Below, piece after piece: positions 37,690-45,608 of a stretch of DNA of 64,000 nucleotides. This stretch comes from Aureimonas mangrovi. GTDB taxonomy: Bacteria; Pseudomonadota; Alphaproteobacteria; Rhizobiales; Rhizobiaceae. Made by a program: the position numbers and the translations under genes. The DNA is taken from positions 1,245,001 to 1,309,000 of the forward strand of contig NZ_CP059692.1 in assembly GCF_014058705.1 (NCBI RefSeq), written 5' to 3'. The notes beneath the pieces were generated by a model. It was not told where the DNA came from. It was given only the letters and a program-made list of their open reading frames with translations, and did not search any database. The first letter of the stretch is position 1; every line of letters begins with the position of its first letter.

Positions 37690-40244
37690 GCGAGATGGAC
37701 CTTCCCGGCCGGATCCCGACCACCGCGCCGCCGCCGCGCCCGGATCCGATCGCCCTGCACCGCGAGCTGCACGAGATCTGGAAGACCGACAAGGGTTTCG
37801 GGCGGCTCGCCGCCGTCAACCACACGATCATCGGCCGCCGCTTCATCGTCGCCGCCTTCGTGTTCTTCGCGATCGGCGGCATTCTCTCGATGCTGATCCG
37901 CGCGCAGCTCGCGACGCCCGGAAGCGCGTTCCTCGGGCCGGACGTCTACAACCAGATCTTCACCATGCACGGCACGGTGATGATGTTCCTCTTCGCGATT
38001 CCGATGTTCGAGGGCATCGCGATCTATCTCCTGCCCAAGCTCCTTGGCGCACGCGATCTCGCCTTCCCGCGGCTCACGGCCTACGGCTTCTGGTGCTATG
38101 TCTTCGGCGGCTCGATCCTGATCGTCGCGCTTCTGGCGGGCGTCGCGCCGGACAGCGGCTGGTTCATGTACACCCCGCTGTCCTCGCGGGTGTTCTCGCC
38201 CGGCATCAATTCGGACGTCTGGCTCCTCGGAATCACCTTCGTGGAGATTTCGGCGGTGGCCGCGGCGGTGGAAATTGTCGTCACCATCCTGACGGTTCGC
38301 GCGCCCGGCATGTCACTCGACAAGATGCCGCTCCTGGCGTGGTACATCCTTGTCACTGCCGGGATGATGGTCGTCGGCTTCCCGCCTCTGATCCTCGGCT
38401 CGATCCTGCTCGAGGTCGAGCGCGCCTTCGACCTGCCGTTCTTCGATCCGTTGCGCGGCGGGGATTCGCTGCTGTGGCAGCATCTTTTCTGGCTGTTCGG
38501 CCACCCGGAGGTCTACATCATCTTCCTGCCCGCGGCGGGGCTGCTCTCGACCATGATCCCGGCGCTCGCGAGGCGCGAGATCGTGGGCTACACATGGATC
38601 GTCGTCGCGGTCATCGCGGTCGGGTTCCTCTCCTTCGGACTGTGGGTCCACCACATGTTCACGGTGGGCATCCCGCATCTGGCACTCGCCTTCTTCTCCG
38701 CAGCCAGCGCGATGGTCGCGATCCCGACGGCGGTGCAGATCTTCGCCTGGCTCGCGACGCTCCTCGACGGGCGGCCGCGTCTGTCGCTGCCGATGCTCTA
38801 CATCTTCGGCTTCTTCTTCATCTTCGTCCTCGGCGGGCTGACCGGCGTCATGGTCGCGGTGGTGCCGTTCGACTGGCAGGTCCACGACACGCATTTCGTG
38901 GTGGCTCATCTGCACTACGTCCTTGTCGGCGGCTTCGTCTTCCCGATGCTGGCTGCGGCCTATTACTGGATGCCGCACATGACCGGGCGCGCGTCCTCGT
39001 TCGGGCTCGGTCACACGGCCTTTTGGCTGATCTTCGTCGGCTTCAACCTGACGTTCTTCATGATGCACCTGACGGGGCTGCGCGGCATGCCCCGGCGCAT
39101 CGACACCTACCCGGCGGAGGCCGGCTGGACTATGCTGAACCTCCTGTCGTCCGTCGGCGGCTTTCTGATGACGATGGGCTTCGTCCTTTTCGTTGTCGAC
39201 ATGGTGGTGCAGATCCGTTTCGCGCGCCGCGCGCCGCGCAATCCGTGGGAGGCGAAGACGCTGGAATGGGCGATGCCGACGCCGCCGCCCTCCTACGCCT
39301 TCGCCTCGCTGCCGCATGTGCAATCGCGCGAACCGCTGCGCGAAGCGCATGATCTCGGCCGCCGGCTCGCGGCCGGGGAGGGCTATCTGGCGACACCGCG
39401 CAACGGCTGGCAGGAGACGCTGGGCGTCCACCCGGTCACCGGAGAGATCGAGCGCATTCTCGTGCTGCCGCGGCGCACCTTCCTGCCGCTCTGGACGGCG
39501 CTCGCCACTTCGACGATCTTCCTGACGCTGCTCTTCGGCCTTTACGCGCTGACGCCGATCGGCTTCCTCGTCACGCTCGGCTTCCTCCTCTCGTGGACGC
39601 GCAGCGAGGGGCAGCGCGTCGACTACGGCTTTCTGCCGATCGGACGCGGGCGCAGCGCCAAGGTCGCGGCCGAGACGAACGGCTCTCCGCCTGTCTGGGC
39701 GATGGGAGTGACGCTGATCGCCAATGCCGCTCTCTTCGCCTCGCTGATCTTCGGGGTCCTGTTCCTTTGGCTGGTCGCGCCCGCCTGGCCGCCGCCGGAG
39801 ATGATGACGAGCGGGCGCCTGCTGCTCGTCGGCCTGGGTCTCGCCGCACTCTTTTCGGCGAGCGCGGGACGTCACGCGGAGGCCCTGAACCGGGCCGGCT
39901 CGCCGCGCCGGACCGTTTCGCTGATAGGAGCGATCGTCGGGCAGTGTGTCGCGCTGGCGGTGCTCGCGATCGTCATCGCCTATCATTTGCCGGACCCGAC
40001 GGCGCACGCCTATGGCGCATCCACTCTGGCGCTTCTCGCCTACGCTGCGATGCAGGCCTTCGTCGGCCTCCTCCTCGCCGGGCTTTCGCTCCAGCGCTGC
40101 CGGTCCGGCAAGGTCGCCGACACGCGCGGGGCGATGATGACGATCGGGCGCTTCTGGTACGACTACACGGCCCTCACAACGCTGATCGTCGTCGCTCTGG
40201 TCATCGTCCTGCCGATGCTGGTGCGCATGGGGCCCGGCGCATGA
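37686..40244 (+). CDS. Cytochrome c oxidase subunit I fused to subunit III
   Basis: An 852-residue protein. Residues 1 to about 545 are heme-copper oxidase subunit I: MHGTVMMF heme ligand, GHPEVYIIFLPAAG with the CuB His, the cross-linked Tyr and the A1-type Glu, WVHHMFTVG, and HDTHFVVAHLHYVL. Residues about 600-852 have five hydrophobic helices resembling subunit III (TLIANAALFASLIFG, RHAEALNRAG, FWYDYTALTT). The usual Ser-Glu of subunit III helix III and the YWHFVD end motif are changed. GTG 37686 overlaps the coxB stop (GTGA); ATG 37695 is an alternative. It reduces oxygen to water and pumps protons in the inner membrane. Confidence 0.9.
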   Translation: MSEMDLPGRIPTTAPPPRPDPIALHRELHEIWKTDKGFGRLAAVNHTIIGRRFIVAAFVFFAIGGILSMLIRAQLATPGSAFLGPDVYNQIFTMHGTVMMFLFAIPMFEGIAIYLLPKLLGARDLAFPRLTAYGFWCYVFGGSILIVALLAGVAPDSGWFMYTPLSSRVFSPGINSDVWLLGITFVEISAVAAAVEIVVTILTVRAPGMSLDKMPLLAWYILVTAGMMVVGFPPLILGSILLEVERAFDLPFFDPLRGGDSLLWQHLFWLFGHPEVYIIFLPAAGLLSTMIPALARREIVGYTWIVVAVIAVGFLSFGLWVHHMFTVGIPHLALAFFSAASAMVAIPTAVQIFAWLATLLDGRPRLSLPMLYIFGFFFIFVLGGLTGVMVAVVPFDWQVHDTHFVVAHLHYVLVGGFVFPMLAAAYYWMPHMTGRASSFGLGHTAFWLIFVGFNLTFFMMHLTGLRGMPRRIDTYPAEAGWTMLNLLSSVGGFLMTMGFVLFVVDMVVQIRFARRAPRNPWEAKTLEWAMPTPPPSYAFASLPHVQSREPLREAHDLGRRLAAGEGYLATPRNGWQETLGVHPVTGEIERILVLPRRTFLPLWTALATSTIFLTLLFGLYALTPIGFLVTLGFLLSWTRSEGQRVDYGFLPIGRGRSAKVAAETNGSPPVWAMGVTLIANAALFASLIFGVLFLWLVAPAWPPPEMMTSGRLLLVGLGLAALFSASAGRHAEALNRAGSPRRTVSLIGAIVGQCVALAVLAIVIAYHLPDPTAHAYGASTLALLAYAAMQAFVGLLLAGLSLQRCRSGKVADTRGAMMTIGRFWYDYTALTTLIVVALVIVLPMLVRMGPGA

Positions 40245-40594
40245 GTCGGGTTTCGACGCGCGGCCGGCTCGCTGCTCTGCTGCTTCTCGGGGGCTTCACG
40301 GCGTGGAGCATCGCCTTCGTCGTTCTCTACGCCGTGCTGTCCGTCGGCTGCGCCTATGGTTGGGACGCGATGCAAGCAGGGCCGGTCAGTCTCAACCGTC
40401 TGGTCCTGACGCTCGTCTGGATCGGCTCCCTCGTCGCGCTCGCCATCATGCTGGCGGGGGTGGTGAGGGGTGCGGCCGGCCCCGGCCGGGTCTCTCGCTT
40501 CCTCCGCCATGCCGGCATCGCGCTGACCGCGCTCGCGCTCGCGGCGACGGCCGCGAACTTCTTCATGGTGACGACGATGTCGACCTGCCTCTGA
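40241..40594 (+). CDS. Small oxidase-associated membrane protein
   Basis: A 117-residue protein with three predicted membrane helices (LLLLGGFTAWSIAFVVLYAVLS, LVLTLVWIGSLVALAIMLAGVV, HAGIALTALALAATAANFFMV). It overlaps the oxidase fusion gene stop as ATGA and is therefore translationally coupled to it. By position it corresponds to the small fourth gene of rhizobial cox operons, but no sequence motif proves that. It ends before the hairpin terminator. Confidence 0.75.
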   Translation: MSRVSTRGRLAALLLLGGFTAWSIAFVVLYAVLSVGCAYGWDAMQAGPVSLNRLVLTLVWIGSLVALAIMLAGVVRGAAGPGRVSRFLRHAGIALTALALAATAANFFMVTTMSTCL

Positions 40595-40599
40595 GTGAG

Positions 40600-40626
40600 A
40601 AGGGCACCCAAGGGCGCCCTTTCTTC
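40600..40626 (+). terminator. Terminator between the oxidase cluster and choX
   Basis: AAGGGC (40600-40605) pairs with GCCCTT (40616-40621), a 10-nt loop lies between, and TCTTCC follows. It lies 5 bp after the stop of the small membrane protein and 7 bp before the end of the convergent choX. Confidence 0.6.
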
Positions 40627-40633
40627 CTCGATC

Positions 40634-41587
40634 TCAGAGCCCGAGTTCGGCGCGCGCGGCCTCGAGCCCCGGCTCGCCGTCGGCGGTTGTGACGCCCTGC
40701 AGCCAGGCGTCGAGCGTTTCGGGATTGGCGGTCAGCCACTCGCGCGCGGCAGTCTCAGGTTCGGCGCCATCGTTGAGGATCGCACCCATGATCTCGTTCT
40801 CCGCCTGAAGCGTGAATTCGAGATTGGCAAGGAAGGCTCCGACATTCGGGCAGTCCTGCGAGAAGCCGGCGCGGGTAACGGTGTCGACACGCGCGCCGCC
40901 GAGGTCGGGGCCGAACACATCGTCGCCGCCTGGCAGATACTCGATGTCGAAGTTCGAATTCATCGGATGGGGCTCCCAGCCGAGGAATACGATCGGCTGC
41001 TCCGCGCGCTCGGCGCGCGAAACCTGCGCGAGCATGCCCTGCTCGGAGGATTCCACCACCTCGAAGCCGGCAAGCCCGAACTGGTCCGCCTCGATCATGT
41101 CGAGGATCAGCCGGTTGCCGTCGTTGCCCGGCTCGATCCCGTAGATGCGACCGCCCAGTTCTTCCCGGAAATCGTTGATCTTGGAGAAGTCGTTCAGGCC
41201 TGCCTCGAACAGGTAGCGCGGCACGGCCAGCGTGTATTTCGCGCCTTCGAGATTGGTGCGGATCACCTCGATCCGGCCATCGTCGCGATAGGCCGCGATG
41301 TCGTTCTCCATCGTCGGCATCCAGTTGCCGAGGAAGACGTCCATGTCGTCGTTGGCGAGCGACTGGAAGGTGACGGGCAGCGCGAGGATGCTCGTCTGCG
41401 GCGTGTAGCCGAGCGCCTCGAGAACGACGGAGGCCGTCGCGGTCGTCGCGGTGATGTCGGTCCAGCCGACGTCGGCGAACCGCACCGTGCCGCAGCTGTC
41501 TGCCTCCTGTGAGAGTGCGGGCGAGGCGAGAAGCGTCGTCGCAAGGAGTGCCGTGGCGGCGAGGGGGGCGGTGCGGAAGTTCGGCAA
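40634..41587 (-). CDS. choX: Choline/betaine ABC transporter substrate-binding protein
   Basis: A 317-residue periplasmic binding protein of the OpuAC/ProX type, closest in look to ChoX. The signal peptide is cleaved near SPALSQ. The mature N-terminus CGTVRFADVGWTDITATTA is a ChoX hallmark, and the aromatic residues expected to cage the trimethylammonium group are seen in VGWTD, GNWMPT and WEPHP. The start is TTG at 41587: an in-frame stop lies two codons upstream, and GGAG is placed correctly. The gene stands alone, with no ChoW or ChoV next to it. It diverges from the betIB fusion across a region with two palindromic operators. Confidence 0.9.
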   Translation of the reverse strand: MPNFRTAPLAATALLATTLLASPALSQEADSCGTVRFADVGWTDITATTATASVVLEALGYTPQTSILALPVTFQSLANDDMDVFLGNWMPTMENDIAAYRDDGRIEVIRTNLEGAKYTLAVPRYLFEAGLNDFSKINDFREELGGRIYGIEPGNDGNRLILDMIEADQFGLAGFEVVESSEQGMLAQVSRAERAEQPIVFLGWEPHPMNSNFDIEYLPGGDDVFGPDLGGARVDTVTRAGFSQDCPNVGAFLANLEFTLQAENEIMGAILNDGAEPETAAREWLTANPETLDAWLQGVTTADGEPGLEAARAELGL

Positions 41588-41689
41588 GGTTCATCGTCTC
41601 CGAGCGTTGGTTGGGTCGAGGCCAGCCGTTCTGACGGCGTCTCATCTCGCATCAGTCTTGCCATCTTGTCGTCAAAGTCAAATCGGTCG

Positions 41690-41705
41690 TTGAACGATCA
41701 TTCAC
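41690..41705. promoter_or_regulatory. Candidate BetI operator, choX-proximal copy
   Basis: TTGAACGATCATTCAC matches the perfect palindrome at 41777-41792 in 14 of 16 positions. It is 103 bp upstream of choX and 87 bp (centre to centre) from the second copy. Confidence 0.6.
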
Positions 41706-41776
41706 CATCAGTCATGAAGGAGAAGGTTCGTCCGAGAGGCGGGAGCTTCACTCTACCGGTTTAACGTGATCGAAGG

Positions 41777-41792
41777 TTGAATGATCATTCAA
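41777..41792. promoter_or_regulatory. Candidate BetI operator, perfect 16-bp palindrome
   Basis: TTGAATGATCATTCAA is a perfect palindrome 19 bp before the fusion start codon. Palindromic TTGAA...TTCAA-type sites are what the BetI repressors of the bet regulon are reported to bind. Its place near the transcription start and the second copy near choX fit autoregulation together with control of choline uptake. Confidence 0.7.
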
Positions 41793-41811
41793 TCATGGTT
41801 ATCCTCCGGTC

Positions 41812-43935
41812 ATGAACACGATTGATGCCAAGCTCGTCCGCCAGAACTCCGTCTCTGCCAGCGAGGAGCAGCGACGCAGGCAGCTCATCGAGGCCACCAT
41901 TGCTGCGTTGGGCGAAATCGGCTTCGCCGCCTCCAGCCTGTCCGAGATCGCGGGCAGGGCCGGCGTCGCGCCCAGCCTTGTCTCGCATTACTTCGGCGAC
42001 AAGGACGGGCTTCTGGAAGCAACCATGCGCTACCTCGCAAAGCGGGTGGGCGACGCGGCGCGCACGCGCCTGCGGGATGCGGACGGTCCGCGCGAGCGGA
42101 TCCAGGCGATCATTGACGCCAATCTCGCGCCGGAGGAGTTCGACGCGCACACGGGCGGCGTCTGGCTCGCCTTCTGGGGGCAGGCGCTGCATTCCGCGCG
42201 CCTGCGCCGCGTGCAGGACGTTTATCAGGGCCGCACGACCTCCAATCTGCGGCAAGCGCTACGCCAGCTCGTCGGCGACGACGATGCGCGGCGCATCGCG
42301 ATCGGGATCGCGTCGCTGATCGACGGGCTCTGGCTGCGGGCCTCTCTCTCGCAGGACTTTTCCGGCTCGCGGGCCGCCGAAGCACGCCGCATCGCAACGA
42401 GCTTCGCCGAACTCGAGATCGGCGCCGCCAAGCCGCGCCCGGTCGAGGCGAAGCCTGCGCGCCCGGCCGTTCGTTCCGGCGCGCCGCGCCTGACGAGCCA
42501 TGTCGGCGGACGCTTCGTCGAGGCCGCGGGTGCCGAAACCTTCGAGACGATCGACCCGGCAACCGGCGAGGTGCTGGCCGAGGTTGCCATCGCAAAGGAG
42601 GCGGAGATCGACGCCGCCGTCGCCGCCGCGAAAAAGGGCCAGGCCGTCTGGGGCGCGATGACGGGCGCCAAACGCGGGCGCATTCTCCACCGCGTCGTGG
42701 CGATCATGCGTGAGCGGAACGAGGAGCTGTCGCTTCTGGAGACGCGCGACACCGGCAAGCCGATTCAGGAGACGCTGGTCGCGGACGCCGCTTCGGGCGC
42801 GGACTGCCTGGAATATTTCGCCGGTCTCGCTGCCGGACTTTCCGGCGAGCAGGTCGACCTCGGCCCCTCTGCCTTCGGCTACACGCGCCGCGAGCCGCTC
42901 GGCGTGGTCGCGGGCATCGGCGCCTGGAACTACCCGATCCAGATCGCCTGCTGGAAGGCGGCGCCAGCGCTCGCCGCCGGCAATGCGATGATCTTCAAGC
43001 CCGCCGAACTCACGCCGCTGACCGCCGCGAAGCTCGCCGAGATCATGACGGAAGCCGGCGTGCCGGACGGCGTCTTCAACGTCGTGCAGGGGCCGGCCTC
43101 GACCGGGCGCCTTCTCTCGCGGCACCCGGAGATTTCCAAGATTTCTCTGACCGGCGAGGTCGGCACGGGCAAGCGTGTGATGGCGGACGCAGCCTCCACG
43201 CTGAAGCAGGTGACGCTGGAGCTCGGCGGCAAGTCGCCGCTCGTCGTGTTCGACGACGCCAGCCTCGACGATGCGGTGGGCGCGGCGATGCTCGCCAACT
43301 TCTATTCGGCCGGCGAGATCTGCTCGAACGGCACCCGCGTCTTCGTCCACGAGGCGGTGAAGGCAGTCTTCCTCGAAAAGCTCAGCGAGCGCACGCGCGC
43401 TCTGATCGTCGGTGATCCACAGGACGCGAGGACCCAGATCGGCGCGCTGATTTCCGAGGATCACATGCGCAAGGTGCTCTCCTATCTCGACATCGCGAAG
43501 CGCGACGGTGCGCGCGCGATCGTGCAGGGCGGGCGGGTCACCGAAGGGGCGCTCGGCAAGGGCTTTTTCGTCTCGCCGACGATCTACGAGGCGGGCGACG
43601 AAATGCGCATCGCGCGCGAGGAGATCTTCGGGCCGGTGATGAGCGTCCTGTCCTTCCGCGACGAGGACGAGGTGATCGAGCGCGCCAACGCCACCGAGTT
43701 CGGCCTCGCGGCCGGCGTCTTCACCCGCGACATGGCGCGCGCACACCGCGTCATCGCCAGGCTCCACGCGGGCACGACGTGGATCAACGCCTACAATCTG
43801 ACGCCGATTGAGCTGCCCTTCGGCGGCGTGAAGCGCTCCGGCATCGGGCGTGAGAACGGCCGCGCGGCACTGGAAGCGCATACGCGCGTGAAGAGCGTCT
43901 ACGTCAATCTCGGTGCCGTCGACGCCCCCTACTGA
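41812..43935 (+). CDS. BetI-BetB fusion: choline-responsive repressor joined to betaine aldehyde dehydrogenase
   Basis: One 707-residue ORF. Residues 1 to about 203 are a full BetI TetR-type repressor: helix-turn-helix [20 protein letters not shown] (43-61) and the BetI ligand domain with [11 protein letters not shown] and [12 protein letters not shown] Pro/Ala/Arg linker (about 204-222) leads to a full aldehyde dehydrogenase (about 225-707) of BetB type: Asn373 in AWNYP, Lys396 in IFKPAE, catalytic Glu470 in LELGGKSP and Cys504 in GEICSNG. No in-frame ATG, GTG or TTG occurs from codon 135 to 253, so BetB has no start of its own. BetB makes glycine betaine from betaine aldehyde with NAD+. No Shine-Dalgarno is evident before ATG 41812. 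betA follows 11 bp later. Confidence 0.93.
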
Positions 43936-43946
43936 GGAGACCAGCG

Positions 43947-45608
43947 ATGAGCGAACGTGAATTCGACTACGTCATCGTCGGCGCCGGCTCGGCCGGCTGC
44001 GTCCTCGCCAACCGCCTGAGCGAAGACGGCAAGAGCACGGTGCTGGTGCTCGAATACGGCGGTTCGGACCGCTCGGTGCTGATCCAGATGCCGAGCGCGC
44101 TGTCGATCCCGATGAACATGAAGAAGTACAACTGGGGCTACACGTCTGAGCCCGAGCCGTATCTGGGCGGCCGGCGCATGAACCTGCCGCGCGGCAAGGT
44201 TCTGGGTGGTTCGTCCTCCATCAACGGCATGGTCTATGTGCGTGGCGCGCCGCAGGACTTCGACCGCTGGGAGCGCGAGGGAGCGGCCGGCTGGTCCTAC
44301 GCCGACGTACTTCCCTACTTCAAGAAGGCTGAGAACCGGGCGACGGGCGGCGACGATTATCGCGGCCACGAAGGCGCGCTGCACACGAGCTACGGCACGA
44401 TGCAGAACCCGCTCTATCAGGCCTTCGTCGACGCGGCGAAGGAGGCCGGCTACCCGGAGAACCCGGACTACAACGGCGCCACTCAGGAGGGCTTCGGCCG
44501 CATGGACATGACCGTCCATCGCGGGCGCCGCTGGTCCACGGCGAACGCCTATCTCAAGCCGGCGATGGATCGGCCGAACCTCGAGGTCGCCACCCAGGCC
44601 TTCGTCGAGCGCGTCGTCTTTGAGGGCAGGCGCGCTGTCGGCGTCGCCTATCGCCATGGCGGGCAGGAGGTGATCGTCAAGGCGCGGCGCGAGGTGATCC
44701 TTTCGGCCGGATCGATCAACACGCCCAAGCTCTTAAAACTGTCCGGCATCGGCCCGGCGGGCGAACTCGCCAGCCACGGCATCGAGATCGTGGCGGACCG
44801 GCCGGGCGTCGGCGAGAACCTGCAGGACCATCTGGAATTCTACTTCCAGGCCGCCTGCAAGGAGCCGATCACGCTGTTCTCGGCCCAGTCCCTCGTGCAG
44901 AAGGGGCGTATCGGCGCGCAATGGCTCCTGATGAAGAGCGGGCTCGGCGCGACCAACCATTTCGAGAGCTGCGGCTTCATCAAGTCGCGACCCGATGTCG
45001 AGCATGCCGACATCCAGTACCATTTCCTGCCGCTCGCCGTGACCTATGACGGCAAGTCGCTGGCGAGCGAGCACGGCTTCCAGGCGCATGTCGGGCCGAT
45101 GCGCTCCAAGTCGCGCGGCCATGTGCGCCTCGCCTCGCCCGATCCGGCCGAGGCGCCGACGGTGCGCTTCAACTACATGAGCCACGAGGACGATTGGCGG
45201 GAGATGCGCGCCTGCGTGCGGCTGACGCGTGAAATCTTCGCGCAGCCCTCGTTCCAGCGCTGGCGTGGCCGCGAGATCGCGCCGGGCGAGGGCGTGCAGA
45301 GCGATGAGGAGATTGACGCCTTCGTGCGCGAGCACGCCGAGAGCGCCTACCACCCCTCCTGCACGGCGAAGATGGGGGCCGAGGACGATCCGATGAGTGT
45401 CGTGGACGCAAAAGCCCGCGTGTTCGGTGTCGAGGGGCTTCGCGTCGTCGATTCCTCCATCATGCCGTCGATCACCACGGGCAATCTGAACGCCCCGACG
45501 ATCATGCTGGCCGAGAAGGCCGCCGACATCATCCGTGGCCGTCCAGCGCTGCGGGCGGATCTTTCCGGGCAAAAGCGCGCTCGGCAGCTGGAGGTCGCCG
45601 CCATCTGA
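43947..45608 (+). CDS. betA: Choline dehydrogenase
   Basis: A 553-residue GMC flavoenzyme that oxidises choline to betaine aldehyde at the membrane. [14 protein letters not shown] binds [24 protein letters not shown] is GMC signature 1, and [16 protein letters not shown] is signature 2. The catalytic His is His469 in [10 protein letters not shown], the BetA form of this motif. The start follows GAGGAG, 11 bp after the betIB fusion, so the two enzymes of betaine synthesis are cotranscribed. The order regulator-betB-betA is the classical bet order, with the first two genes joined. Confidence 0.95.

Follow-up and report, generated by a model that had tools for sequence, protein, structure and literature searches.

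The gap between choX and the BetI–BetB fusion gene of Aureimonas mangrovi contains two matching palindromes, which are probably two operators of the fusion, looped for joint repression of choX and the divergent betI-betB-betA genes. The operators are conserved in relatives and restricted to this gap, and the operator-to-operator distance, alone of the distances compared, varies in phase with the DNA helix; from the comparison of loci, looping at the operator pair appears likely.

In the window (the whole stretch of DNA analyzed, 64,000 nucleotides), the fusion gene occupies positions 41812..43935 on the plus strand as a single reading frame of 707 aa. The protein comprises a TetR_N DNA-binding domain (residues 25-70, 41884..42021, +; Pfam PF00440, E=8.5e-11), a BetI-type C-terminal domain (residues 93-199, 42088..42408, +; PF13977, E=1.4e-26), and an aldehyde dehydrogenase (ALDH) domain (residues 235-696, 42514..43899, +; PF00171, E=1.5e-166; NF009725, 772.9 bits with a cut-off of 593). 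Both BetI domains score above cut-off, as does the BetI model NF001978 (193 bits, cut-off 118), while TIGR03384 gives 198.2 bits, slightly below its cut-off of 201.3. The ALDH domain is full and has the catalytic Asn373, Glu470, and Cys504, as expected of BetB; its best structural matches are solved BADHs. The AlphaFold2 monomer model of the fusion has a mean pLDDT of 83, with a low-confidence linker at residues 213-221. The gene context is that of BetI, with choX (choline ABC transporter substrate-binding protein, 40634..41587, –; TIGR03414, 450.7 bits, cut-off 379) divergent from the fusion, betB fused, and betA (choline dehydrogenase, 43947..45608, +; TIGR01810, 841 bits, cut-off 732) immediately downstream; a sequence-only reading of this DNA had already described choX on one side of the palindromes and the fusion on the other. 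Cytochrome oxidase genes on the opposite strand flank choX (window 40244-41587), choW and choV being absent on that side.

Searches with the BetI domain retrieve fusions from Aureimonas and its relatives, Ancylobacter, Kaistia, Azorhizobium, and Bosea, and also from Faunimonas, Methylobrevis, Rhodomicrobium, Caulobacterales, and many gammaproteobacterial MAGs. In the BetI tree the fusions fall into one group (support 0.89), adjoined by a group of unfused BetI. Two kinds of long open frames were rejected as fusions: a 674-aa frame over BetI (G155), since the BetI frame in L246 stops at 207 aa, and frames of 714-984 aa over betB (L008, L009), which are spurious N-terminal extensions without BetI. 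Frameshifted or contig-truncated fusions (L060, L080, L105) were set apart.

The fusion-side operator (41777..41792, no strand assigned) is the perfect 16-bp palindrome TTGAATGATCATTCAA, with a weight-matrix score of 27.9 bits (26.5 in cross-validation). The choX-side operator (41690..41705, no strand assigned), TTGAACGATCATTCAC, is identical to it at 14 of 16 positions and scores 18.5 bits (15.4 in cross-validation). Both palindromes lie where the sequence-only reading had placed them, and their starts are indeed 87 bp apart; its figure of 8.3 helical turns, which assumes 10.5 bp per turn, is corrected to 7.9 at the repeat of about 11 bp seen in loops in vivo (PMC1762422). With up to three mismatches, a wider scan than the two mismatches it had proposed, the palindrome has two matches in the 64-kb window, 0.06 being expected, and the same two are the only matches in the whole genome of 3,485,124 bases, where the reversed control pattern has none. 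The A. mangrovi genome thus holds no further site of a wider regulon at this threshold of up to three mismatches. The cross-validation matrix, trained without any Aureimonas-type sequence, gives the palindromes the two highest scores of the window, 26.5 bits for the fusion-side site and 15.4 for the choX-side one, ahead of a third site with 1.5 bits. Together, the mismatch scans of window and genome and the matrix ranking rule out a chance palindrome. The sites have the TTGA...TCAA form of BetI operators and one of them lies at the promoter predicted for the fusion itself; their assignment as TetR(BetI)-type operators, as originally proposed, is strongly supported by sequence and by their retention in relatives that have the gene pair.

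Absence of the sites from such relatives had been named beforehand as evidence against the proposal; in a non-redundant set of 97 loci where the fusion is divergent from choX, 95 have at least two operator sites in the gap. Among unfused BetI/choX loci, a comparison set drawn chiefly from one order, at least two sites are seen in 13 of 63, nearly all of them belonging to the sister group or adjoining the fusions of genus g142. Because the fused loci share a single origin, the contrast between fused and unfused loci amounts to about one evolutionary event, not many. In fused loci of at least 5 kb, 134 sites of at least 15 bits occur in 30.5 kb of gap versus none in 624 kb of flank. The motif derived from the conserved sites is TTGAAYGNNCRTTCAA.

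If an assembly holds both sites, the length between them should evolve mainly by whole helical turns. Operator spacing in fused loci ranges from 86 to 189 bp, with one outlier at 234 bp; L120, with three sites, was kept apart from the spacing set. Twenty phylogenetically independent pairs differ in spacing by at least 6 bp, the differences being 8, 8, 9, 10, 10, 10, 10, 11, 11, 11, 11, 12, 12, 12, 13, 14, 20, 24, 56, and 65 bp. These differences are best fitted by a period of 11.0 bp (mean cosine 0.64, P<1e-4 against both a jitter null and an empirical indel null), where the P values are not those of a pre-planned test, since the clustering had been seen by eye in the first loci. The phasing is retained with a threshold of 4 bp (P 0.0004-0.002) and with strong sites alone (P<1e-4); some pairs do differ by 4-5 bp. 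The signal does not come from a single genus, as it persists in the 13 pairs left when the Ancylobacter group is removed (P=0.002 and 0.007). Distances from operator to the betI codon and from operator to choX show no periodicity (P=0.55 and 0.64), which excludes a general excess of indels of about 11 bp as its source. For all spacings together, periods of 11.0-11.3 bp fit better than one of exactly 10.5 bp.

In loci outside the gammaproteobacterial MAGs, 63 of 81 spacings deviate from a multiple of 11.0 by no more than 2 bp, compared to 37 expected under an even distribution. The 87 bp of the window compares with 97 bp in its closest relative, A. frigidaquae has 86 bp and A. fodinaquatilis 97, and Ancylobacter repeatedly switches between 176 and 188 bp. 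Gammaproteobacterial MAG loci cluster at about 140, 150, and 161 bp, with a different absolute phase. The period agrees with in vivo fits of LacI loops, 10.95-11.6 bp per turn (PMC1762422, Table 1). Like a loop-forming repressor, the system has two operators at a helically phased distance. The phasing that looping predicts is borne out by this comparison of loci, which makes the loop itself likely.

The positions of the operators suggest how repression might work. The sigma-70-type promoter predicted for the fusion gene (41777..41805, +; read from the sequence) has its –35 box TTGAAT at 41777-41782, a 17-bp spacer, and its –10 box TATCCT at 41800-41805, so that the –35 box is the left half of the fusion-side operator. 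Several Aureimonas-type relatives have a TATCC, TATTC, or TATCG hexamer equally far from the operator. On the other side, the predicted choX –35 box TTGACT (41676..41681, –; likewise a reading of the sequence) is 8 nt away from the choX-side operator, and TTGACA or TTGACT lies 4-9 nt from it in the Aureimonas relatives. At low choline, one BetI-type dimer head would sit on each operator, the fusion-side one masking the –35 box predicted for the fusion gene itself and the choX-side one adjoining that of choX. One oligomer holding both bound heads would then close a small DNA loop and repress both divergent promoters together; choline bound to the BetI part would release the loop, and uptake by way of choX and oxidation by the fusion and betA would start jointly. 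The predicted –10 box stops 6 bp upstream of the ATG of the fusion (window 41800-41814), hence the fusion mRNA may be leaderless; in Aureimonas relatives an AAGGAG-type ribosome site sits between –10 and ATG.

The bridge between the operators would be either the BetB tetramer, a dimer of dimers carrying two BetI dimer heads, or contacts between BetI parts. Tetramers composed of two dimers are common among ALDHs of the BetB type (PMC8160307). Fused to BetI, such a tetramer could carry a pair of BetI dimers, and bridging by the ALDH tetramer, as suggested in the sequence-only reading, is plausible, if tentative. For this bridge speaks the retention, in at least three lineages (Kaistia, g142, and L144), of a fused ALDH lacking catalytic residues. 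The catalytic Cys and/or Glu expected of BetB are lost in ten relatives: Kaistia adipata and K. granuli (L061, L065), one more genome of that Kaistia genus group (L119), L144 from a second family, and six g142 species (L130, L132, L138, L140, L141, L142); one of these, L138, has no detectable operator. The degenerate domains stay in frame, are still detected by Pfam, and are under purifying selection in close pairs, with pN/pS of 0.25-0.36 for ALDH versus 0.01-0.11 for the BetI part; a modelled pseudo-ALDH retains the ALDH fold and matches solved BADHs. In five of the six g142 fusions the same genome has a separate betB about 4 kb away, while no other ALDH above 43% identity to BetB was found in the three Kaistia genomes. 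The degenerate domain thus appears to be retained for a non-catalytic role, and catalytically dead ALDHs in several lineages are compatible with that of a scaffold. We entertain, with some reserve, the broader reading that a TetR-family repressor recruited its own enzyme as a DNA-looping clamp, the ALDH being in some lineages a dead scaffold kept only for regulation.

Against the ALDH as the bridge, two g142 species (L133, L136) have lost the domain, with a short remnant left at the BetI C-terminus, and keep both operators, 140-141 bp apart, that is, 12 bp from the 152-153 bp of their fused congeners. Two operators are also present in the gaps of unfused BetIs of the sister group, at spacings of 175-348 bp; in close pairs of these loci the spacing differs by 10, 10, and 13 bp. 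As the pairs occur in these species and in the unfused sisters, the ALDH is not needed for the operator pair, which, like its phasing, may be older than or independent of the fusion; BetI–BetI contacts may suffice for bridging. The same observations, together with a conserved block between the two sites in Ancylobacter gaps, favor a loop or co-bound complex made without the ALDH, in which the BetI heads of this clade interact, or an architectural protein sets the phase, and the fusion is incidental. Such a complex shares the loop with the preferred explanation and differs from it in the bridge; it is a possible reading that we hold doubtful, as unfused two-operator examples are few and the retention of dead fused ALDHs in several lineages is left unaccounted for.

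A different role for the fused ALDH, as a sensor instead of a scaffold, seems rather improbable. Here, aldehyde, betaine, or NAD(H) would alter DNA binding in the manner of a trigger enzyme, and the degenerate ALDHs would be pure sensor domains, as in MocR, a scheme that can coexist with looping. It has precedents in PutA (PMC5293562) and in MocR regulators with their aminotransferase-like domain (PMC5320631), and it fits the persistence of the ALDH fold where catalytic residues are gone; however, most degenerate domains are also altered at the cofactor site (positions of Asn373 and Lys396), and a sensor alone explains neither the operator pair nor its phasing. Two independent operators without a loop, where each BetI-type dimer represses the adjacent promoter and the fusion couples only the dosage of regulator and enzyme, are unlikely: with each operator at or beside a predicted –35 box, two local operators would be enough for two promoters, and classical BetI gaps, mostly single-operator, indicate that looping is no general need of the family, but this arrangement fails to predict a phased operator-to-operator distance next to freely drifting operator-to-gene distances.

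Taken with a joint loop as the preferred explanation, the system would act like a LacI-type looping repressor with PutA-like self-regulation by an enzyme while belonging to neither family; it is a repressor of the BetI type, newly arranged. With BetI accompanied by a separate betB (Escherichia coli, Sinorhizobium, Acinetobacter, and BetI1/BetI2 of Ruegeria pomeroyi; PMC12442346) it shares the TetR_N and BetI C-terminal domains, the bet/cho divergon or operon, and TTGA...TCAA palindromes at –35 boxes. Classical BetI is a separate polypeptide of about 200 aa, whereas the present repressor and its enzyme form one polypeptide, an arrangement conserved in more than 100 loci. Ruegeria BetI2 likewise has two boxes in one intergenic region, but these overlap (PMC12442346), while here they are 87 bp apart and phased. 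The operator core also differs, being TTGAAYGNNCRTTCAA here, a nested TTGATTGA-type site in classical BetI, and ATTGACGCGTCAAT in Ruegeria. The classical unfused BetI/choX gaps (L010-L015, L209-L268) mostly have a single site of the nested TTGATTGA...TCAA pattern, not the TTGAAYG core.

Repressors of the LacI/GalR type are similar in having two operators about 90-190 bp apart, a spacing period of about 11 bp, and an inferred bivalent oligomer; here, in contrast, the fold is that of TetR, the proposed bridge is an enzyme tetramer, and the evidence is comparative only. PutA, too, is a catabolic protein with a DNA-binding domain at its N-terminus and a domain of the ALDH superfamily, and its repression of its own gene, along with that of the transporter gene putP, resembles the self-regulation proposed here. 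Its DNA-binding part, however, is not homologous: PutA has a ribbon-helix-helix domain, through which it dimerizes, and a proline dehydrogenase domain, and a Pfam scan found neither in the fusion. MocR-family regulators likewise join a DNA-binding domain to an enzyme fold and bind operator repeats on one face of the helix (two to three turns), but with a GntR domain, an aminotransferase fold, and direct repeats at a short distance. Among the papers searched, none mentions a BetI–BetB fusion, and none reports looping by BetI or bridging by an ALDH tetramer.

If looping is true, a TetR-family, enzyme-fused case joins the short list of repressors inferred to loop DNA, and phylogenetic drift of operator spacing offers a way to detect looping by sequence comparison only. 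With operators kept beside ALDHs that are intact, dead, or deleted, the transition from enzyme to regulator would become directly testable. Finally, a third operator is seen in L050, L086, L120, L145, L180, and L181, and also in L037, L046, L165, and L184, at 44-45 bp (four turns of 11 bp) or 68-70 bp from the choX-side operator.
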